Origin: an uncultured Bacilli bacterium
GTDB taxonomy: Bacteria > Bacillota_I > Bacilli_A > RF39 > UBA660
Direction of reading: 5' to 3'
Assembly (NCBI GenBank): GCA_947598485.1
Contig: CANQFJ010000014.1
Location: 1-41,967 of the forward strand
Length of the DNA stretch: 41,967 nt
Below are positions 4,904 through 31,534 of the stretch, piece by piece. How positions within the stretch are numbered: position 1 is the stretch's first letter; each line of letters begins with the position of its first letter. The position numbers and the translations under genes are program-made. The notes under the pieces were generated by a model. The model saw only the letters and a list, made by a program, of their open reading frames with translations. It was not told the origin of the DNA and searched no databases.

Positions 4904-4931
4904 ATGTCACAATTTCTAAGGGGATTATGTG

Positions 4932-6737
4932 ATGAAAAATTCAAAAATTAAAAGAAATTTAGCGGGATTACTCGCTGTATTACAATTAGGATTAGTATCT
5001 GGATGTTCTTTAAATGAGATTTCTGATGAAGAATATGACGAAGCTCTAGAACAAATTGAGCAACTAGAAGATGACAATAGGGTTTTAACAGATGAAAATA
5101 AAAGGTTGGAAGATCAAAATAAGGCTTTAGCAGAAGAAAACCAAACTTTAAAAGATGAGATAAATGCCAAAAATGAAAATAAGCCAAGTGCACCAACTGA
5201 TGAACCTGATGTTACAGAAGTTAAACTTGCAGAAAAGGACAATATAATAAATGCAGCATTATTGCAAGAAATAGGTTTAGATTTTGATTATTCAAATATT
5301 CCTGAAATGCAAGATGTTATTAATTACTTTAATAGTTTTTTAAGTAACTATGAAGCTGTTACTTATAGCGTTTCTTCAAACCATATCAGATTGATGGCAG
5401 ATGGAATTTGTGTTGCTACAATTTATAGTCAAGAAGATCCTAAAACAGTTCATTTTCTTACTACCTACGGTGATAGTCTAAATCATTACTATTGTACACT
5501 TTATTTTAATGATGATAATAGCCTGTCTTCTATTTTTGTTTCAGATTATTTGACATGGGATACGGATGAATATATTTACTCAAAAGAGCATGCAATTAGT
5601 CCAAATCTTCACGTTGATGAGTCTGTAGGAGTTGCCAAAAAAGCTGTGGGAAATGAAGAAGGTGCTGTTGAATATGATATTCAAATTGCCGCAGTTTGCT
5701 ATACAACATATAATGACTATTGCTTAGAATTTACAAACAAGTTAAATCATGATGAAAGGACTCGGGTGTTAATTCAAAAAGAAGATTATGATCTTTTAAA
5801 AGAGTTAATTAGTTCTTATGATGCAACATGTGGTGACTTCTTACCTTATATTAAAGACACCTTAATCGTAGTTATTCAAAAAAATGGTAAAGAAGATGAA
5901 CTTCAATTTTATGTTGATATAATAAATGCTATAGGCGATGAGCAAAATCCTGTAACTGATGAAGTCGATAATCCAAAAGTAGACACTTCAGATGTAGAAG
6001 TTAAACCTAATCCAGTTACGGGTCATGTAGAAGCTGTAAATGCAGCATTATTGCAAGAAATAGGTATAGATTTTGATTATTCAAATATTCCTGCGATTAC
6101 AAGTTGTATAGAATTCTTAAATAACTTTATTGCTACTTATTCAAAAGCAGAATATGAAATTCAAAAAAACAATGGAATGAATCGAATCGAATTTAGAAGT
6201 GATGGTGCTATTATTGCATCTGCTATGTATGATTCAGTAAACAAAGTTTTATCTATTAATTTACAATATTATAGTAGCCATTGTTATTATTGTGCGGTTT
6301 TTGACGATAATAATGAATTAGCATATTTTGATGGTCGATCAGGATGGAATGTTGATAATATGTATTGCACTCAAGGATATAGTGAATATCCAAAGGCTGA
6401 TGGTAATAGTTCATGTTACAATTATATCGATGTTAGTAACTATGAAGATTTCACACTTAATCTACATATAGAGGCTTACAAAGTAAATTCGAGGTATTAT
6501 TTATCTTTAAATGATGAAGCTGATATTGGATTAAAGTCTATTAACCTTAATGAAGAAGATTATCAAGCTTTAGTTAACTTATTTAATTCGTATGATACTA
6601 ATAGCGGAAATATACTTGCATATGTTAAAGATACTTTAATTGAAGTGATTAGTAAGTATGATAAAGAAGGCGAACTTCAATCTTACATTAATATCATAAA
6701 TGGTACTGGCGCTAGAACATTAACAAATATTGATTAA
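4932..6737 (+). CDS. Lipoprotein with coiled coil and two copies of an unknown domain
   Basis: The preferred start is ATG 4932, eight bases after AAGGGG; GTG 4929 directly before it is also possible. A signal peptide with lipobox LVSGC predicts lipid anchoring outside the membrane. Residues about 32-80 are a heptad-rich coiled coil, then a Pro/Thr/Asp linker, then two diverged copies of a domain of about 220 residues. Each begins NAALLQEIG(L/I)DFDYSNIP and ends near (Y/V)KDTLI-V-I--K-GKE-ELQ. The copies are offset by 789 bases (263 codons). I do not recognise the domain. The gene stands alone between its own promoter and terminator, so it is probably a single surface protein. Confidence 0.85.
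   Translation: MKNSKIKRNLAGLLAVLQLGLVSGCSLNEISDEEYDEALEQIEQLEDDNRVLTDENKRLEDQNKALAEENQTLKDEINAKNENKPSAPTDEPDVTEVKLAEKDNIINAALLQEIGLDFDYSNIPEMQDVINYFNSFLSNYEAVTYSVSSNHIRLMADGICVATIYSQEDPKTVHFLTTYGDSLNHYYCTLYFNDDNSLSSIFVSDYLTWDTDEYIYSKEHAISPNLHVDESVGVAKKAVGNEEGAVEYDIQIAAVCYTTYNDYCLEFTNKLNHDERTRVLIQKEDYDLLKELISSYDATCGDFLPYIKDTLIVVIQKNGKEDELQFYVDIINAIGDEQNPVTDEVDNPKVDTSDVEVKPNPVTGHVEAVNAALLQEIGIDFDYSNIPAITSCIEFLNNFIATYSKAEYEIQKNNGMNRIEFRSDGAIIASAMYDSVNKVLSINLQYYSSHCYYCAVFDDNNELAYFDGRSGWNVDNMYCTQGYSEYPKADGNSSCYNYIDVSNYEDFTLNLHIEAYKVNSRYYLSLNDEADIGLKSINLNEEDYQALVNLFNSYDTNSGNILAYVKDTLIEVISKYDKEGELQSYINIINGTGARTLTNID
5249..6093 (+). repeat. Internal duplication with a nearly identical 55-base DNA patch
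   Basis: The segments starting at 5249 and 6038 match over about 55 bases with a single difference (T/A at the Leu/Ile codon), while the rest of the two domain copies has diverged strongly. The period is 789 bases. Confidence 0.75.
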
Positions 6738-6914: not shown

Positions 6915-7523
6915 CTAATACTGGTAATCCAATTCAGCGACAACAATAAGTCGCTTTTTTATGTTGTTTTCACAAGTTACTAAAGTTAAAATTTTTTTGT
7001 TACTTACTTGTTTAAAGAAAGACATATCACTTTCATCAATAGTTTGTTTATCTTTAACTGCATAAGTATAAGTATCTTTTAAGGTTACAATTTTTATTTT
7101 GTCACCAATTTTAGCTTTATGTAAATTTTGAAAAACATTATTCGTGTTATGGCCTGCGAGGATTATATTGCCTAATTCAGAGTCAAGATTAACAGAGCTT
7201 TTTAAAATTCCGACTAGATTTTTATCTAATATTTCTTTTTCAGTGCCTTTGACAATCAACCTTTTAATGTTCAAACTCGGTATTTCAATATATCCAAGAT
7301 AATAATTATTTAATTTATTAGTTTCTAGCTCTAATTTATTTTCCTTTTCATTTATTATCATATAAGAGTTTGTGTTCAAAAATTGATTTTCTATTATCCT
7401 ACTTGTTTCTTGCTTATCTTTATACTTTGCTTTTCCAAATTTATATAAGTAAATCATCGAGACTAATAACAAGATTATCCCAATGTATTTTGAAATTTTC
7501 TTTTTAATGTCTTTTTTTGCCAT
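6915..7523 (-). CDS. Sortase, class D-like, of the adhesin locus
   Basis: The 202-residue protein has one N-terminal membrane helix (about residues 13-28) and a compact sortase barrel. The catalytic triad is visible: His125 in GNIILAGHNT, Cys184 in LTLVTC, and Arg191 in KKRLIVVAEL. The motif YLGYIEIPSLNIKRLIVKG and the lack of a C-terminal membrane helix fit class D better than pilin-type class C. Sortases cleave a cell-wall sorting signal and attach the protein to peptidoglycan. Its start overlaps the adhesin's last 20 bases and has no clear ribosome binding site, so translation is probably coupled. The expected substrate is the adjacent adhesin. Confidence 0.88.
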   Translation of the reverse strand: MAKKDIKKKISKYIGIILLLVSMIYLYKFGKAKYKDKQETSRIIENQFLNTNSYMIINEKENKLELETNKLNNYYLGYIEIPSLNIKRLIVKGTEKEILDKNLVGILKSSVNLDSELGNIILAGHNTNNVFQNLHKAKIGDKIKIVTLKDTYTYAVKDKQTIDESDMSFFKQVSNKKILTLVTCENNIKKRLIVVAELDYQY

Positions 7524-10500
7524 ATGCTACAAAAATTAAGCCTAATATAGCACTGCCATTAATTGTTAGTAAAGTTGCTAAATCTGTGTTATATGTATCT
7601 GGCATTTCTTCTTTTTCGTTAGTCATTTTAGCTTGAATAACTTCTCCGTCTTCCTTAATTTCAAAATACATTTTTTCATTATTTAAAACGTATCCTTCCG
7701 GAGCTTCCTTTTCAATAATATAATATTTACCATATTCTAAATTTTCTATTATTATTTTACCTTCTTCATCAGTTCTCCCTGAGAATATTAATTCATCGTT
7801 TTCGTTATAAATTTCAATTAAGGTATTAGGAAGTGGCTCTACTGTAGACAAATCTTTCTTAGTAAATTCCAAAGTACCGGTAATTTTTTCGTTAGTCATT
7901 TCTGCTTTAAGGACTTTACCATCTTCCAAAATTTCAAAATACACTTTTTCATTATTTAAAACATAACCTTCCGGAGCTTCTTTTTCTAAGATATAATATT
8001 TGCCGTATTCAAGATTTTTAACAATAATCTTTCCATTTTTATTTGTTTTGCCCGAAAAGATAAGTTCATCATTATCATTATATATTTCAATTAGTGCATT
8101 AGGTAAAGGATTACCTGTAGTTAGATCCTTTTTGGTAAATTCAAGATCACCTTTAATCTTTTCATTGGTCATTGTAGCTTTTACAATTTGTCCGTCTTCT
8201 TTAATCTCAAAGTATACTTTTTCATTAGTAAGCTTATATCCAGTAGATGGTTCTTTCTCTATAATATAGTATTTTCCATATTCTAGCTCCTTTATTATGA
8301 TTTTACCTTCTTCATTAGTTCTTCCCGAAAATATTAATTCATTGTTTTCGTTATAAATTTCTATTAAAGTATTTGGTAGAGCTTTACCTGTAGATAAATC
8401 CTCCTTAGTAAACTCCAAGGTTCCCGTAATTTTTTCGTTAGTCATTTCTGCTTTAACGACTTTACCATTTTCTTTAATTTCAAAATACATTTTTTCTTCA
8501 TTTAAAACATAACCTTCCGGAGCTTCTTTCTCTAAAATATAGTATTTACCATATTCAAGATTTTTAACAATAATCTTTCCATTTTTATTTGTTTTGCCCG
8601 AAAAGATAAGTTCATCATTATCATTATATATTTCAATTAAGGCATTGGGTAAAGAACTCCCTGTAGTTAAGTCTATCTTTGTAAATTCAAGATCACCTTT
8701 AATTTTTTCATTGGTCATTGTGGCTTTAACAACCTGTCCGTTTTCTTTAATCTCAAAGTACACTTTTTCATTATTTAAAACATAACCTTCAGGAGCTTCT
8801 TTTTCTAAGATATAATATTTGCCGTATTCAAGATTTTTAACAATAATCTTTCCATTTTCATCTGTTTGGCCTGAAAAGATAAGTTCATCATTAATATTAA
8901 ATATTTCAATTAATGCATTAGATAAATGATTACCTGTGGTTAGATCTTCTTTGGTAAATTCAAGATCACCTTTAATTTTTTCATTAGTCATTGTAGCTTT
9001 AACAACTTGTCCGTCTTCTTTAATCTCAAAGTACACTTTTTCATTATTTAATTTATATCCTGTTGCAGGTTCTGTTTCAATAATATAAAATTTTCCTGCA
9101 AATAAATGCTCAATTGTTATATTTCCTTTTTCATCAGTAATACCACTATAAATAAGTTCATTGTCTTCTGTAAAGACTTCTATTTTTACGTTAGGAATTT
9201 CTTTCCCTGATGTTAAATCACTTTTTGAAAATTCTAATTTTCCTTTTTTTAGATAATTTTTTAAGGAAAAGCTTTCAGTTACAATAGGCGTATATTGGTC
9301 TATATATTTTAAATCAATTTCATGCATTATATTATCTAATACAAAGCCATCAGCAGTCTTTAGTTCTTTTATAAAATACTTACCTAATTTTAAATTGTTG
9401 ATTATAACCTGACCATCATTGTTTGTCGTGTATGAATTGATAAAATTTCCTAGTTCATCATATAGCCCAAAGACAATGTTAGGAAGAGTAACTTCCTCAT
9501 AAATGAATTTACCATCTTCAATTACAACGGATTCTCCTAACTTTTGAATTTCAATTTTTCCTTTAACTTCAACGTTAGTAAATTTTAGTTCTATAATTGA
9601 ATCAAATTCTTCGGTTTTTTTAAAATCAGACTTTTCATTAATTGAAAATTTTAAAGATTCTGAATTCCATAAGTATCCCTCGATTGCTTGATCTACTTCT
9701 TCAAGCTCGTAATTTCCTGAATTTAAAGGGTAGGGTGTAATTAAAATGCCATTTTCATCAGTTGAAAATTCACAATACGTTTGATGATTAGGGTAGTATA
9801 TAGTTTGACAAACATAATCGTTATTTGAAAGGTCTTTTATTTTAAACTTTATTCCTGACTTAGCAATGCTTTTTCCATTTTCATCTACTTTTAAAACTTT
9901 TACTCGAGCAGTTATTTCCGCGTTGGAAAACACTTTATTAATAGTAGGGCCAGATTCCGTTATTTCAAATTCAAAATCCTCAAGCTTTTCATAGCCAACC
10001 GGAGTTGTTAATTGCCTTAATATATAATGGCCATAAGGTAAAGTAAAAGTTATTTTTCCTTGGTTGTCGGTAGTATACCTAGAAATAAGTTGATTATTTT
10101 TATTATAAATGCCAAATTCAATATTAGCTTCAGGAGTCAGTACTTGAGTTTTATTGCTTGCTACTACTTTAGTTATACTATATTCTCTTTTTATAACCTT
10201 TTCTTTAACTTTTATATTAGGATATAGGTTATTCGTTTGCAGATCAAAATAATATTTTTCTAAATCTAGTTCATATCCTTTACTTGGTGTTATTTCTTGT
10301 AAATAGTATCTACCTGTACTAGGAAGATAATTACTTTCAGCATAACCATTTTCGTCTGTTATAAGCTTTTCTATTAAAGAGCCATCTTCTTTATAAAGCC
10401 CATATACGGCTCCTTGTAGTGTTGCATCTCCTTGAGCAGAGGCAAGACCAGTATCATAATCTAACTTATTTAAAGTGATTTTTCCGCCAATAATATTTAG

Positions 10501-11316
10501 ATTAAAATTAGTTTCAATAGGATCGTAACTTCCTACTTGAACCATGTCTTGTCCTCCAACTTTTGGATATATAATTGTAGGATGTGAATAATTACTATCT
10601 TTTTTTGTTAAGGTAATGGTGGCATTACCAACATTTTTAGCAACAATATTTAATTGATTAGTATCTTTAGTAGCTAATACATTATCGCTACTTGATACAT
10701 CATATTTTGTTAAAACATTATTTTTGTCGGTAAGACTTAATTTATTTCCTATGGTAATGTCGTGGCCAATATCACCAAAGTCAGGAGTAATATCGTGATT
10801 AGCTAGCAAAGTTTCCATTTCTTGAATTTCTGCGTTATATGGTGTAATATATGAACCATTTAAAGTATCGGTAAAATATATTTTCCAACCATGAGGAACT
10901 GTGCACCATATCATATATTGAGTAATAGCGTACCATTTTAAATCTGTATGATCGATTTCACCATCATGATAACCATAGCCGTAATACGCTAATAACTGAA
11001 TTCTTTTCCATTCGTTAGCCGTAACATTTGAAACCTCTAATTGATTATAATCTTGACCAATGTAATCTTGATCAGTGTACAATAACTCATTTATTTCCAT
11101 ACAATAGACGAATTGATTATCACTTTTTCTTGTAACTACTGCTAATTGTAGATAATGAGTACTTGTATCTGGCTCGACTTTGGTAATGAAAATATTTGGA
11201 ATTGGCAAATAAGAATCATTAAACTGCTCATTGTATGTTGCTCCATAAACTTTTTTTAAACATGGACTTATAAACATTATTATTACAACTAATAAATACT
11301 TAAATAGTTTTTTCAA
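7504..11316 (-). CDS. Thioester-domain adhesin with ten CnaB-type modules and a sorting signal
   Basis: This 1270-residue surface protein starts at TTG 11316, seven bases after AAGGGGGAA; no ATG fits. Residues 1-25 are a signal peptide. Residues about 40-190 look like a thioester domain: Cys72 in FVYCMEIN, AYYGYGYHDG, and Gln133 in YAITQYMIW, the pair that forms an internal Cys-Gln thioester in Gram-positive adhesins. After an Ig-like stretch come four diverged and six near-identical SpaA/CnaB modules, each with Lys in LEFTK, Glu in the ILEKEAPEGY strand and Asn in MTNEK, the layout of self-forming isopeptide bonds. The C-terminus has MPDTYN, a hydrophobic helix and KKRH, a sortase signal with Tyr at the usual Gly position. 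This is a covalently binding, rod-like adhesin by homology. Confidence 0.92.
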   Translation of the reverse strand: MKKLFKYLLVVIIMFISPCLKKVYGATYNEQFNDSYLPIPNIFITKVEPDTSTHYLQLAVVTRKSDNQFVYCMEINELLYTDQDYIGQDYNQLEVSNVTANEWKRIQLLAYYGYGYHDGEIDHTDLKWYAITQYMIWCTVPHGWKIYFTDTLNGSYITPYNAEIQEMETLLANHDITPDFGDIGHDITIGNKLSLTDKNNVLTKYDVSSSDNVLATKDTNQLNIVAKNVGNATITLTKKDSNYSHPTIIYPKVGGQDMVQVGSYDPIETNFNLNIIGGKITLNKLDYDTGLASAQGDATLQGAVYGLYKEDGSLIEKLITDENGYAESNYLPSTGRYYLQEITPSKGYELDLEKYYFDLQTNNLYPNIKVKEKVIKREYSITKVVASNKTQVLTPEANIEFGIYNKNNQLISRYTTDNQGKITFTLPYGHYILRQLTTPVGYEKLEDFEFEITESGPTINKVFSNAEITARVKVLKVDENGKSIAKSGIKFKIKDLSNNDYVCQTIYYPNHQTYCEFSTDENGILITPYPLNSGNYELEEVDQAIEGYLWNSESLKFSINEKSDFKKTEEFDSIIELKFTNVEVKGKIEIQKLGESVVIEDGKFIYEEVTLPNIVFGLYDELGNFINSYTTNNDGQVIINNLKLGKYFIKELKTADGFVLDNIMHEIDLKYIDQYTPIVTESFSLKNYLKKGKLEFSKSDLTSGKEIPNVKIEVFTEDNELIYSGITDEKGNITIEHLFAGKFYIIETEPATGYKLNNEKVYFEIKEDGQVVKATMTNEKIKGDLEFTKEDLTTGNHLSNALIEIFNINDELIFSGQTDENGKIIVKNLEYGKYYILEKEAPEGYVLNNEKVYFEIKENGQVVKATMTNEKIKGDLEFTKIDLTTGSSLPNALIEIYNDNDELIFSGKTNKNGKIIVKNLEYGKYYILEKEAPEGYVLNEEKMYFEIKENGKVVKAEMTNEKITGTLEFTKEDLSTGKALPNTLIEIYNENNELIFSGRTNEEGKIIIKELEYGKYYIIEKEPSTGYKLTNEKVYFEIKEDGQIVKATMTNEKIKGDLEFTKKDLTTGNPLPNALIEIYNDNDELIFSGKTNKNGKIIVKNLEYGKYYILEKEAPEGYVLNNEKVYFEILEDGKVLKAEMTNEKITGTLEFTKKDLSTVEPLPNTLIEIYNENDELIFSGRTDEEGKIIIENLEYGKYYIIEKEAPEGYVLNNEKMYFEIKEDGEVIQAKMTNEKEEMPDTYNTDLATLLTINGSAILGLIFVAYGKKRH
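7588..7605 (-). other. Sorting signal MPDTYN of the adhesin
   Basis: The codons give Met-Pro-Asp-Thr-Tyr-Asn, followed by a helix of about 20 hydrophobic residues and KKRH. It keeps the xPxT core of LPxTG signals but has Tyr where Gly is expected. Confidence 0.75.
7618..9255 (-). repeat. Six tandem 273-bp CnaB module repeats
   Basis: The Asn codon of the closing TNEK motif recurs at 7618, 7891, 8164, 8437, 8710 and 8983, exactly 273 bases (91 codons) apart, and the aligned Asn of the preceding diverged module is at 9256. The last four units alternate in type: two begin KGDLEFTK with SGKTNKNG and two begin TGTLEFTK with SGRT, so a 546-bp double unit was duplicated. Confidence 0.93.
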
Positions 11317-11345
11317 TTAAATTCCCCCTTAAATGTTATAAAATA

Positions 11346-11567
11346 CTATTTATTTGATATATGATAATCAAATTCAATATAATTAGTATCTGGTGTATTA
11401 TTTATAAAATCATCATCAAAATTTCTATTGTCTATTAAGTTATTTTTTGAATCTGAAGAATCAATGCTACTATCTCTAAATTTTTGCTTATTATTTTTGT
11501 TTATAAAATATCCTATAATAATTGTTATTAAAATTATCAAAAAAATTAATAAACATTTTTTCAACAT
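11346..11567 (-). CDS. Small membrane-anchored protein of the adhesin locus
   Basis: This 73-residue protein has an N-terminal membrane helix (LLIFLIILITIIIGYFI) followed by a Ser/Asp/Asn-rich tail. The start follows AAAGGAG; an upstream ATG is followed at once by TAA, so ATG 11567 is used although the spacing is long (11 bases). I recognise no family. It is the first gene after an internal promoter (11610-11618) and lies 29 bases before the adhesin, so it probably belongs to adhesin export, anchoring or regulation. The tail contains TPDTNY, but no hydrophobic segment follows, so it is not a sorting signal. Confidence 0.65.
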   Translation of the reverse strand: MLKKCLLIFLIILITIIIGYFINKNNKQKFRDSSIDSSDSKNNLIDNRNFDDDFINNTPDTNYIEFDYHISNK

Positions 11568-11609
11568 TACATAATTTTCTCCTTTCTATTTATTTTTAAA
11601 ATATTGTAG

Positions 11610-11618
11610 ATTATAACA
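11610..11618 (-). promoter_or_regulatory. Internal promoter before the small protein-adhesin-sortase genes
   Basis: TGTTATAAT on the minus strand gives a predicted transcript start near 11603, 36 bases before the small gene. The -35 position (AAAGGT) is far from consensus, which leaves room for an activator. Confidence 0.55.
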
Positions 11619-11639
11619 TCCTATATCATCGTACCTTTC

Positions 11640-12098
11640 TTAGGACTTAAAGCAAAAATCATCAAGCCCAAGGGCAGTTACAAACTTTATACAAGCACTT
11701 TTTTTTATTTCTCGAATTTTATCTTTACCATAATGAACTGTATTAATAATGTCATTTTCACTAAAACATCTATAAAAAGTAAGATCAAAAACTTGTAATT
11801 CAAGATTATTTAGTTTTCTCATAGCTAATGTTATCTTAGAAAGTAATTGATATTTCTCATTATCTTTTTTGACTTTTAGTAGTAAGCTTTTTAAATCAAA
11901 TTCCCTTATTTGTGAATTATCTACCTTAATAAAATTATCGTAACAAACTTGATAATCATCCGTGATTTTAGGAAGCAAAATCTCATCATTGCTTAATTTT
12001 AAATGTTTAAAAAGCATAAAAATGTTTAAGATTATATTTTTTAATTTAACATAATCATATAAAGATAATTCGTTTTTCCCAAGTAATGTATTGTTCAT
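11640..12098 (-). CDS. Small HTH regulator, ArpU/RinA or sigma region 4-like
   Basis: The 152-residue protein begins at ATG 12098 behind AAGGGGGAA, the same unusual Shine-Dalgarno context as the adhesin gene. The N-terminal half has no motif I recognise. The C-terminal half (MRKLNNLELQVFDLTFYR, then ENDIINTVHYGKDKIREIKK and a closing helix) looks like a sigma-70 region 4-type helix-turn-helix as in phage ArpU/RinA late-gene activators. It is the first gene of the adhesin locus and follows a leader of about 250 nt. A role as activator of the weak -35 promoter at 11610 is inferred. Family assignment is tentative. Confidence 0.6.
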   Translation of the reverse strand: MNNTLLGKNELSLYDYVKLKNIILNIFMLFKHLKLSNDEILLPKITDDYQVCYDNFIKVDNSQIREFDLKSLLLKVKKDNEKYQLLSKITLAMRKLNNLELQVFDLTFYRCFSENDIINTVHYGKDKIREIKKSACIKFVTALGLDDFCFKS

Positions 12099-12361
12099 AA
12101 TTCCCCCTTAACCAAGTATCCAATGCTATGTAAATAATTTTTTAATATATTTAAATTAAAAAATAAAAAAAGGAAGAGCTGCATTTCAGGATACATACTA
12201 CTTCCTTTAAAAAATAACTTTGGAAAACTGCGCACTATATTAATATGAAAAAATAAAAAAATCAAGCTATTTCAAACCATATATAGTTAATTTTATGTGA
12301 ATACGAAATATTTTAAAAAGAAGCATTGGATACATTTTTCGTATTCGTTTACATTATAACA
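12099..12361 (-). promoter_or_regulatory. Structured leader of the adhesin locus
   Basis: TGTTATAAT (12353-12361, minus) predicts a transcript starting near 12346. The RNA would begin with a 10-bp hairpin (GAATACGAAA/TTTCGTATTC, 12299-12346) whose loop holds GTATCCAATGCT (12322-12333). A terminator-type hairpin at 12169-12208 carries a variant, GTATCCtgaAATGC, in its loop. Six bases before the Shine-Dalgarno sequence stands AGCATTGGATAC (12116-12127), fully complementary to the first loop and, with a bulge, to the second. This could be a long-range RNA switch, a leader-derived small RNA with a target in cis, or a set of protein sites on DNA. Confidence 0.6.
12155..12208 (-). terminator. Terminator-type hairpin inside the leader
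   Basis: On the minus strand AAAGGAAG (12201-12208) pairs with CTTCCTTT (12169-12176) around a 24-nt loop and is followed by a long T-rich tract. It lies about 140 nt after the predicted transcript start and 57 bases before the regulator's Shine-Dalgarno sequence, so it would stop much transcription before the gene. Confidence 0.6.
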
Positions 12362-12487
12362 ATCTAGTAGCATCGAGTAAATTGGGAATAAATGTCTTAT
12401 AAAAAGCGAATAAAATGTCTTGATAATAATAAATCAACTTGACTTTAAACTGTTATATTTTAACTTTTTTTATTTAATCAATCATAT

Positions 12488-19564: not shown

Positions 19565-19589
19565 GCAATAAAAAAGACCCTAGGGTCTT
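19565..19589. terminator. Terminator between the unknown gene and the class B-like sortase gene
   Basis: AAGACCCTAGGGTCTT (19574-19589) is a perfect palindrome with a T-rich tract on the minus strand, so it mainly serves the sortase gene. It overlaps that gene's stop codon. Confidence 0.7.
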
Positions 19590-20799
19590 AATTTTCAGTT
19601 TCTTCAGTTGTTTTAATTTCTCTTTTAATTAGTTTGGCGTGTATTACCATTTTTTCTGTATTGCTATAGCATGTTGATAAGGTTAAAATTTTATCATCAG
19701 CATCAACAGTTGTTTTAAAATCAAACATACTTCTCTTAATTAATTTGTTAGTAAAATTAGTAAAATCTTCATTGCTGCTAAAACTTATTTGGGAATAATC
19801 TGGACGTGGAGAATTAGCTATATGATACGCACTAAATATTTGCCAAACAGAATTTTCATCTTCCGTAGATATTTTAATTACAAAGTTTTCTGTGTCATCA
19901 GTCCAGCCACTGGTTAGGATATCATTTAAAGAACCAAACATAGTCTTATTCAATCTACCATGACCATAGATGATGGTATTTTTTTCTTGCCATAATGTAT
20001 TACGATAATCTAAAAATATCCATCCTGCTTCATTAGAGCTTTTATCAATACTATGATATAAATAATAACTATTATTGTTTGTTTGGACAAATGGATAATT
20101 AACTTTTGTACCTTCGACTTCAACCCAGCCAACTACATCTTCATTATCTTCCTTCAAATCGGTGAAATCAATATCAATAAAATCCATTGCTAAGTATTGA
20201 AGTACATCTTCGGTAAATTCTTTAACTACTATTTCAACATTTTTACCAGCGTTTTCCTTGATATCAACAGAATCTTTTAAACTATCAATTATATCTTGGG
20301 TCTTTTGGTTATCAATACGCCATGAAATAATTTTATAACCTGAATAACCGAATACTCCAATTAAGATAATAATTACAACATACAATAAATATTTTATTAT
20401 ATGCTTCTTTTTTTTAGTTTCTTTCTTTAAAGAAATTTCTTCTTTTGGATTTTTAACAATCTCTTTTACCTTAACTTTTTCACTTAAAGAGGGTTCAACT
20501 TTTGGTACTATTTTTTCTTGTTTTGGTTTTTTTACTACCTCTTTTACCTTAACATTTTCATTTAAAGTTGATTCATCTTTTAGTACTATTTTTTCTTCTT
20601 TTGAATTCTTAACAATCTCTTTTACTTTGACTTTTTCAGTTAAAGAGGGTTCATCTTTTAATTTAGGGTTATTATCTTTTTGTTTATTTGCTTTTTCTAC
20701 ATTTTCTTTAGTTTCTACTTTTTTCTTCACACTAGCTTTTGCATCTGTACTTTTGTTTTTAGTACTTTTATTATCATCTTTCTTTTTTATCTCTGCCAT
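19588..20799 (-). CDS. Class B-like sortase with a Lys-rich repeat tail
   Basis: The 403-residue protein starts at ATG 20799 after AGGTGA. Residues 1-132 are cytoplasmic, highly charged and include three 26-residue repeats (KVKVKE(I/V)VK core). A membrane helix lies at about 135-155. The external domain is class B-like: DVVGWVEVEGTKVNYPFVQT, YYLYHSIDKSSNEAGWIFLD, His280 in IIYGHGR and Cys377 in LTLSTCYSNTEK. Where class B enzymes have the catalytic Arg before the final strand (R-x-VV), this protein has Lys383 (EKMVIHAK), which may lower or change activity. Class B sortases anchor heme-uptake proteins or pilins; no substrate lies next to it. The class call is good; the substrate is unknown. 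Confidence 0.85.
   Translation of the reverse strand: MAEIKKKDDNKSTKNKSTDAKASVKKKVETKENVEKANKQKDNNPKLKDEPSLTEKVKVKEIVKNSKEEKIVLKDESTLNENVKVKEVVKKPKQEKIVPKVEPSLSEKVKVKEIVKNPKEEISLKKETKKKKHIIKYLLYVVIIILIGVFGYSGYKIISWRIDNQKTQDIIDSLKDSVDIKENAGKNVEIVVKEFTEDVLQYLAMDFIDIDFTDLKEDNEDVVGWVEVEGTKVNYPFVQTNNNSYYLYHSIDKSSNEAGWIFLDYRNTLWQEKNTIIYGHGRLNKTMFGSLNDILTSGWTDDTENFVIKISTEDENSVWQIFSAYHIANSPRPDYSQISFSSNEDFTNFTNKLIKRSMFDFKTTVDADDKILTLSTCYSNTEKMVIHAKLIKREIKTTEETEN
20422..20655 (-). repeat. Three 78-bp repeats in the cytoplasmic tail of the sortase gene
   Basis: Residues 49-74, 75-100 and 101-126 are three 26-residue units sharing (E)xSLxExVKVKE(I/V)VKxxKxE. They are basic and predicted cytoplasmic. Confidence 0.85.
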
Positions 20800-30990: not shown

Positions 30991-31008
30991 TAAATTGAGG
31001 TGAGAACT

Positions 31009-31266
31009 ATGAGTACAATCAATATCACTAAGGCAAGAGCAAATTTATATCAGTTAGTATCAGATGTAAATGTTGGATTTAATCCAATTACAATTGTTAA
31101 TAATAAAGGGAAAAATGCTGTCTTAATATCAGAAGATGAATGGAAAAATATTGAAGAAACTTTGTTTTTGTCAAGTATACCAGGTTATGTTGAGAATATA
31201 AATAATATTAAAAATAGCGAAGATTGGGATAATGCTAAAGAATATAAAAAAGATGAAGAATGGTAA
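31009..31266 (+). CDS. Phd/YefM-family antitoxin
   Basis: The start is ATG 31009, just after GAGGTGAG; the upstream GTG overlaps that site. The 85-residue protein has the Phd/YefM fold: INITKARANLYQLVSDVN, then ITIVNNKGKNAVLISEDEW in the DNA-binding half, and an acidic toxin-binding tail (EDWDNAKEYKKDEEW). It should neutralise the adjacent YoeB-like toxin and repress the pair's promoter. The toxin start overlaps its end by 14 bases. Confidence 0.9.
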   Translation: MSTINITKARANLYQLVSDVNVGFNPITIVNNKGKNAVLISEDEWKNIEETLFLSSIPGYVENINNIKNSEDWDNAKEYKKDEEW

Positions 31267-31534
31267 TGCTTATATAATTAAATTTTCTAAACAAGCGGAA
31301 AAAGATAAAATAAAACTTAAAAATGCTAATTTAGATAAAAATTGTAAAAATATATTAAATTTGATGATTGAAGATCCATTTTGTTATCCACCTACTTATG
31401 AAAAATTAACAGGTGAATTAACAGGTTTATATTCTAGAAGAATAAATAGACAACATAGAATTGTATATGAAGTAGATAAAAATAAAAAAGAAATTCACAT
31501 TTTAAGAATGTGGACTCATTATGAAAAAATGTAA
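31253..31534 (+). CDS. YoeB/Txe-family mRNA-cleaving toxin
   Basis: I choose ATG 31253 (MKNGNAYIIKF), which overlaps the antitoxin's end and gives the normal YoeB start; the frame is open further upstream. The 93-residue protein matches YoeB throughout: FSKQAEKDKIKLKNANL, DPFCYPPTYEKLTGEL, YSRRINRQHRIVYEV and the C-terminal RMWTHYEKM. The active-site Glu (YEKL), Arg (SRRIN), His and Tyr (THYE) are present, so the toxin looks functional. YoeB binds the ribosome and cleaves mRNA in the A site. Type II pairs of this kind are common near mobile or variable regions. Confidence 0.93.
   Translation: MKNGNAYIIKFSKQAEKDKIKLKNANLDKNCKNILNLMIEDPFCYPPTYEKLTGELTGLYSRRINRQHRIVYEVDKNKKEIHILRMWTHYEKM

Follow-up and report, generated by a model that had tools for sequence, protein, structure and literature searches.

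How did a compact adhesin locus, with its own regulator and sortase, come to lie on the chromosome of a very small bacterial genome, and what does it serve there? We examined the locus at positions 6915 to 12361 of a 41,967-nt stretch of contig CANQFJ010000014.1 (the window), which belongs to the 1.26-Mb draft genome of an uncultured Bacilli bacterium (GCA_947598485.1; 38 contigs, 96.6% complete). An earlier note, made from the letters alone, had described here a self-contained thioester adhesin system with a structured leader, a small regulator, a 73-residue membrane protein, a 1270-residue adhesin and a sortase. The four genes are real: all four minus-strand open reading frames (ORFs) were confirmed (Table 1), and Pfam recognized the adhesin and the sortase, NCBIfam the regulator. 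The adhesin gene initiates at TTG, and its ORF overlaps that of the sortase by 20 nt. In our reading, the locus probably descends from the head of a transfer operon of an integrative conjugative element (ICE) and is now fixed on the chromosome, with a domesticated, still self-regulated mating adhesin as its product. Points that favor an origin in elements include these: regulators 63 to 66% identical to that of the window lie on elements; the repeats, promoter, leader and terminator are shared with them; the sortase forms a 100/100 clade with element sortases; and the gene between regulator and adhesin shows a series of erosion.

An ArpU-like gene heads operons for thioester domain (TED) adhesins on many mobile elements, and the layouts that were read are those of transfer operons. 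The regulators at 63 to 66% identity were found in three genomes (G242, G114 and G232) and on four contigs (L164, L165, L167 and L171). On L138, L164 and L167, the regulator gene was followed by genes for proteins of 173, 79 and 88 aa, a single-stranded DNA-binding protein (SSB), a membrane protein that we call the companion, the TED adhesin, the sortase, TrbL and PrgI; the companion was not seen on L171. The G242 element encodes a TraG/VirB4 ATPase (E of 1.5e-24), a MobL relaxase (3e-25), TrbL (8e-18), SSB, an M23 peptidase, PrgI (weak) and a large serine recombinase. A more distant element in G001 carries genes for a VirB4-type ATPase, an M23 peptidase, a relaxase and SSB, with no integrase seen; the regulator relative on it is only 27% identical. 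Among the 291 genomes of the family, the companion domain was present in 41 and ArpU-like genes in 58, the latter under a permissive limit that lets in ordinary sigma-like proteins among the weaker matches. In at least 13 genomes the two genes lay on one strand no more than ~3 kb from each other, and in five more they shared a contig at a distance of ~30 kb. Beside the window locus itself, no relaxase, type IV secretion system ATPase or integrase genes were recognized.

Two side observations concern these elements. The G242 element lies between two collagen-like pieces (MNPSGY...GPTGP; L138 2018-2209 and L173 14166-14648). Its serine recombinase is at one end, and the arrangement looks like an insertion into a collagen-like gene in the vicinity of an rpoB-like one. 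A second element type, seen on six contigs, has ParA- and/or ParB-like genes directly 5' of the companion, TED adhesin and sortase genes; no ArpU-like gene adjoins them, but some relatives have one on the same contig at a distance of ~30 kb.

Among the ten genomes of the genus, regulators with 66 to 71% identity to that of the window were found in G006, G007 and G009, a TED adhesin gene following in each case. These three and the window share one chromosomal site, where the same genes for PepSY and a P-type ATPase recur on one flank, and the other members of the genus were without both the PepSY gene and the window-type regulator. Uncultured Bacilli from 'Lapin' (rabbit) samples, recovered as bins, are the nearest relatives in which the locus was found. 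The dN/dS ratios (nonsynonymous over synonymous rates) were 0.08 to 0.36 for the regulator, the TED and the sortase where dS was finite, and the chromosomal short form is, by this measure, under purifying selection. Retention under selection in very small genomes implies that the adhesin is of benefit.

The gene between the regulator and the adhesin encodes 175 aa in G006, 179 aa in G009 and 73 aa in the window, and only about six codons of it are left in G007. Two conserved cysteines mark the C-terminal domain of the long forms, which also have a transmembrane (TM) helix and a linker that is acidic and rich in Asn. The 73-aa form retains the helix, some of the linker and a tail ending in EFDYHISNK, which fits KEFDYHTIQIPNE of the rabbit element L164, whereas the Cys-containing domain is absent. 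The 73-aa protein is best read as a shortened, eroding remnant of the companion gene; the Asp/Ser-rich protein of the earlier note is not a module in its own right. In L165 (3024-3679), the companion is split into frames of 95 and 70 aa on an otherwise intact-looking element. Loss of the companion is thus not limited to the chromosomal form.

As had been predicted, the regulator is kept in the neighborhood in relatives: regulator, adhesin and sortase occur together, ordered and at the same site in the four congeners. The proposal of one regulated adhesion system can be upheld to the extent that these three genes form one inherited unit. The small gene is not kept in this way, being full length in two relatives, shortened in the window and nearly gone in a third. 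Nor is the unit self-contained, as it appears to correspond to the head of a conjugative transfer operon together with its adhesin part.

The region 5' of the regulator gene is shared as well. Nine chromosomal and element loci have a pair of AGACATTT-type repeats at a distance of 23 nt, the promoter P1, a hairpin at its start, a second promoter-like site (P2) and a terminator-like hairpin whose 5' arm is conserved. Changes on both sides were found in 4 of the 10 pairs of the leader hairpin, counted with the arms joined without loops, and shuffle and slide controls were passed. The terminator-like hairpin was present in all loci, with z from -4.0 to -5.3 in four of them (-4.0 in the window and -4.7 to -5.3 in the relatives). 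The structured leader of the earlier note is thus real and conserved. A search of the leader against Rfam gave no match at the gathering cut-off and one chance match with E of 4.2. A family-wide regulatory RNA was considered and rejected: the pattern AGGAAGTAGTAYKTATCC occurs in 16 of the 291 genomes and is exact in all sampled copies inside the module, but its matches outside lie in coding sequence, for example at GSSMYP in signal peptidase I, and a reversed-pattern control gave a similar number. Complementary 12-mers, gtatccaatgct and agcattggatac (12118-12129 and 12322-12333), flank most of the leader, and the arms of relatives differ yet stay complementary. An invertible promoter with these arms, ~200 nt apart, was rejected as the leading idea on account of this variation between species and since no recombinase was seen nearby; the 12-mers may reflect a long-range helix or something else.

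The regulator matched the NCBIfam model phage_arpU (TIGR01637) with E of 4e-6 and 27 bits, under the cut-off of 43.1, and the model matched all six regulator relatives (best E of 2.3e-8). Judged by these scores, it is a distant ArpU relative and not a member by NCBI's rule. Its AlphaFold model matched sigma region 4 domains with probabilities up to 0.99 and E of about 0.3-1. Searches of 50,697 phage records, 72,556 plasmid records and IMG/VR found no relatives of the regulator, and a phage origin was rejected. The earlier label of a small ArpU/RinA or sigma-like helix-turn-helix protein thus holds as a likeness to ArpU and sigma region 4, and 'phage-like' only as a family resemblance. The direct repeats 5' of the promoter beside the regulator gene, present in 9 of 9 loci, are likewise a likeness to the ArpU-family layout only.

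The sortase domain (PF04203) was above the Pfam cut-off (92.6 bits, E of 2e-26), and the His/Cys/Arg motifs were found as AGHN and VTCENN..KRL. The best match in the Protein Data Bank (PDB) was 4d70 (E of 3e-16). The earlier note had called the enzyme class D-like and overlapping the adhesin gene; the sortase and the overlap were confirmed, but class D is only the nearest label, as the class-specific NCBIfam models were all under cut-off (NF033746, 66 bits against 165; SrtD, 80 against 140). Across 30 adhesin-sortase pairs, the ORFs overlap by 4 to 68 nt (approximate, from longest-ORF starts), and MP[DNK]T[YF]N is limited to sortases of the clade of the window, with VPxT or similar in other pairs. 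This clade comprises the window, three congeners, the G242 and G114 element copies and one long-branch row (L063). The TED and sortase of the window are 59% and 58% identical to those of the rabbit element L164 and 48 to 54% to the chromosomal copies of congeners, which hints at exchange with elements after the first capture, a hint limited by near-saturation at synonymous sites. The genome has three further sortase-domain proteins, four in total. A Lys-rich protein of 403 aa (19588-20799, minus strand) has a sortase-domain match at 19630-20121.

Pfam assigned a TED (E of 3e-7) and ten SpaA/CnaB stretches to the adhesin, in agreement with the 1270-residue protein with ten CnaB modules that had been described. 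A five-member profile of the N-terminal region had a single PDB match, the TED of SaTIE (6fx6; E of 2e-14 by hmmsearch), whereas the single TED protein gave no match in a PDB sequence search. The AlphaFold model of the TED was compared with 6fx6, with a Foldseek E of 9e-11 and, by VIA, a Z of 12.5 and 3.6 Å over 206 residues. The model had a mean pLDDT (predicted local distance difference test) of 64, up to ~90 in the beta-sandwich part and mostly below 50 in the head (residues 14-95). Because of this low confidence, the model adds little in the head part, and the claim is carried by the sequence alignment. SaTIE-TED is a class II domain with a Cys296-Gln467 bond, in which the glutamine of the TQXXPhiW motif is a separate conserved residue without which bond formation is possible (PMC6194298). 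In the profile alignment, the bond cysteine of SaTIE aligned with Cys72 and Gln467 with Gln256, and we assign to the window adhesin a class II TED with a predicted Cys72-Gln256 bond. The earlier note had paired Cys72 with Gln133; by this alignment its cysteine was right and its glutamine wrong, Gln133 being the accessory TQXXPhiW glutamine and not the bond partner. Both motifs are present, [YFL]C as YC at 71-72 and TQXXPhiW as TQYMIW at 132-137. In a set of 29 family adhesins, Cys72, Gln133, Trp137 and Gln256 never vary, and the Thr of the accessory motif is kept in 28 of 29. The Cys72/Gln133 pair is thus conserved as had been expected, though with the wrong glutamine, and the residue to mutate is Gln256 instead of Gln133.

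These features can be joined in a tentative mechanism. The ArpU-like protein, similar to the sigma factor domain that binds the -35 element, would bind the paired repeats 5' of P1 and activate its own gene and those downstream, forming a positive-feedback switch, while the terminator hairpin of the leader would hold basal read-through down. The output would be a class II thioester adhesin on a stalk, which could couple covalently to a target amine through its Cys72-Gln256 bond; the sortase, whose gene overlaps that of the adhesin, would read MPxT[YF]N and fix the adhesin to the cell wall. On elements, the module would promote contact between donor and recipient. In the bacterium of the window, with the transfer genes lost and the companion eroding, the adhesin may now serve the host, probably by attachment to a host surface or to neighboring cells.

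Some observations weigh against this account. Next to the chromosomal locus, neither an att site nor any other remnant of an element was found, so the direction from element to chromosome rests on distribution and companion erosion. Most pairs are close to saturation at synonymous sites, and P2 was absent from a consensus promoter scan and is weak. In addition, the fold match of the regulator is weak by E-value. The reverse direction, in which conjugative elements acquired a chromosomal adhesin operon together with its switch, would fit with the TED-sortase pairs without a companion that are common on chromosomes of the family. However, those pairs lack the regulator, leader and sortase type of the window, the regulator subfamily is chromosomal in one subclade only but on elements in several genera, and the full companion is held by element operons; we regard this direction as improbable. 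A free-standing four-gene system for host adhesion, with a working 73-aa protein and a regulator from phage, was the view of the earlier note, and the order kept in four congeners and the intact 73-aa frame with its good TM helix would agree with it. We nevertheless consider it very improbable, given the variable length of the small gene, the loss of its Cys-containing domain and the regulator relatives, which were found on conjugative elements and in none of the phage, plasmid or IMG/VR collections.

The adhesin might also still aid conjugation, to the benefit of elements passing through the same cell, as its close relatives lie in transfer operons. This seems quite improbable, as the draft genome (96.6% complete) had no companion-domain match, no second TED gene and no VirB4 of 780 to 815 aa of the element type. 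Its sole TraG-like ATPase has 599 aa, with a counterpart of 597 to 601 aa in all genomes compared, and the genome yielded no element of the type described above. A further alternative, compatible with an element origin, concerns the mode of control: the regulator or the leader RNA would antiterminate at the hairpin, as in conAn or Tn916, making the leader the main control. Conserved hairpins and a terminator do lie between the promoter and the first gene, the conjugation operons of pLS20 and Tn916 are under terminator/antitermination control, and processive antitermination is known at the start of such operons (PMC8955417, PMC11658703). Small late regulators with repeats at a promoter beside their own gene are, for their part, known from staphylococcal phage (PMC13123087). 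The regulator, as modeled, resembles the DNA-binding sigma region 4 domain, the leader has no Rfam match, and a ConAn1-like gene was not recognized, although no profile search for ConAn1 was made. Leader control is unlikely in our estimate, though the sequence is compatible with activation and with antitermination alike.

The reading as a descendant of a transfer-operon head has a precedent in Bacillus subtilis plasmid pLS20, the first element shown with a class II thioester adhesin. This adhesin, TIE-pLS20 (p34), is needed for efficient conjugation and fails as a Cys mutant; it likewise combines a class II TED with Cna-type domains in a conjugation operon, and its thioester Cys and Gln are spaced as in the window, ~185-190 residues apart (68/256 and 72/256, respectively). 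The plasmid lacks a sortase, and its adhesin a sorting signal, whereas the locus here has both; an ArpU-like regulator or a companion was not found described for pLS20, and in the window the adhesin gene is chromosomal and no transfer genes accompany it (PMC8092201). The class II proteins SaTIE, BaTIE and EfmTIE86 share the TED fold with its beta-sandwich insert and have aligned bond residues; the window adhesin differs from them in its ten CnaB domains, MPDTYN signal, paired sortase gene and regulator (PMC6194298). The phage late regulators ArpU, RinA and Ltr are also of ~130-170 aa, with the gene beside the promoter thought to be controlled and direct repeats 5' of it, but the window-type regulator heads a conjugation/adhesin operon instead of phage late genes and falls under the ArpU model cut-off (PMC13123087). 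CD0386 of Clostridioides difficile CTn1 is likewise an LPXTG protein with CnaB repeats, with sigma-like proteins, on integrative conjugative elements; it has no recognized ligand-binding domain, and a link of regulator, adhesin and sortase in a single operon is not described there (PMC3158075).

TED adhesins in conjugation are thus already known; of their combination with an activator, a companion and a private sortase, no description was found in the open-licence papers searched. On balance, we lean towards a family of ICEs of uncultured gut Bacilli with a transfer-operon switch of the sigma-4 type that resembles phage late activators, a hairpin/terminator leader, a covalent mating adhesin, a private sortase and an unnamed Cys-containing companion, of which one host lineage would keep the switch-adhesin-sortase core on its chromosome after loss of the transfer genes. 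Elements that pair the adhesin with its own sortase behind a recognizable activator would offer a testable, anchored version of the pLS20-type adhesin, and the chromosomal copy may be an example of a mating adhesin turned to host use.

Table 1. Features of the adhesin locus, in window coordinates
Feature	Position	Strand	Basis and remarks
Distal direct repeat AAGACATTT, proposed activator site	12413..12421	-	23 nt from proximal copy; conserved in 9/9 chromosomal and element loci with small changes; binding inferred
Proximal direct repeat AAGACATTT	12390..12398	-	8 nt 5' of the -35 hexamer
Promoter P1: TTTACT, 17 nt, TATAAT	12353..12381	-	TG before -10 (extended -10); kept in all loci, spacer 16-17 nt
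5' leader hairpin, stem GAATACGAAA/TTTCGTATTC	12299..12346	-	Just past P1 start; folds in 8/8 leaders
P2, second conserved promoter-like site: TTGATT, 17 nt, TAATAT	12237..12265	-	Alignment; spacer kept by eye in loci read
Terminator-like hairpin with conserved GGAAGTAGTAYKTATCC, then T run	12161..12210	-	5' of regulator start; -14.1 kcal/mol, z -4.0
Regulator, 152 aa, ArpU-like, C-terminal half sigma region 4-like	11640..12098	-	TIGR01637 in 6/6 members; AlphaFold model
Companion membrane protein, probable remnant, 73 aa	11346..11567	-	TM helix, partial linker, C-terminal EFDYH tail; Cys-containing domain gone
TIE-type adhesin, 1270 aa	7504..11316	-	Signal peptide, class II TED, ten CnaB domains, sorting signal
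Class II thioester domain (by alignment), aa 27-275	10492..11238	-	hmmsearch to 6fx6, E 2e-14; VIA Z 12.5
Thioester-domain codons	Cys72 11103-11101; Gln133 (accessory) 10920-10918; Gln256 10551-10549	-	
Ten SpaA/CnaB stalk domains, aa 278-1237	7606..10485	-	Pfam SpaA, ten stretches; ten E-containing motifs ending GY/GF
Sorting motif MPDTYN, aa 1238-1243	7588..7605	-	Then hydrophobic stretch and basic tail
Cognate sortase, 202 aa	6915..7523	-	Pfam Sortase, 2e-26; 100/100 tree clade

Outside the locus, two small overlapping ORFs at 31000-31534 (plus strand) resemble, by eye only, a Phd/YefM antitoxin and a YoeB-type toxin. A lipoprotein-like protein of 602 aa with two similar halves is encoded at 4929-6737 (plus strand). 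Its counterpart in G006 consists of two separate adjacent genes (L037 13926-16061), which suggests a fusion or a split.

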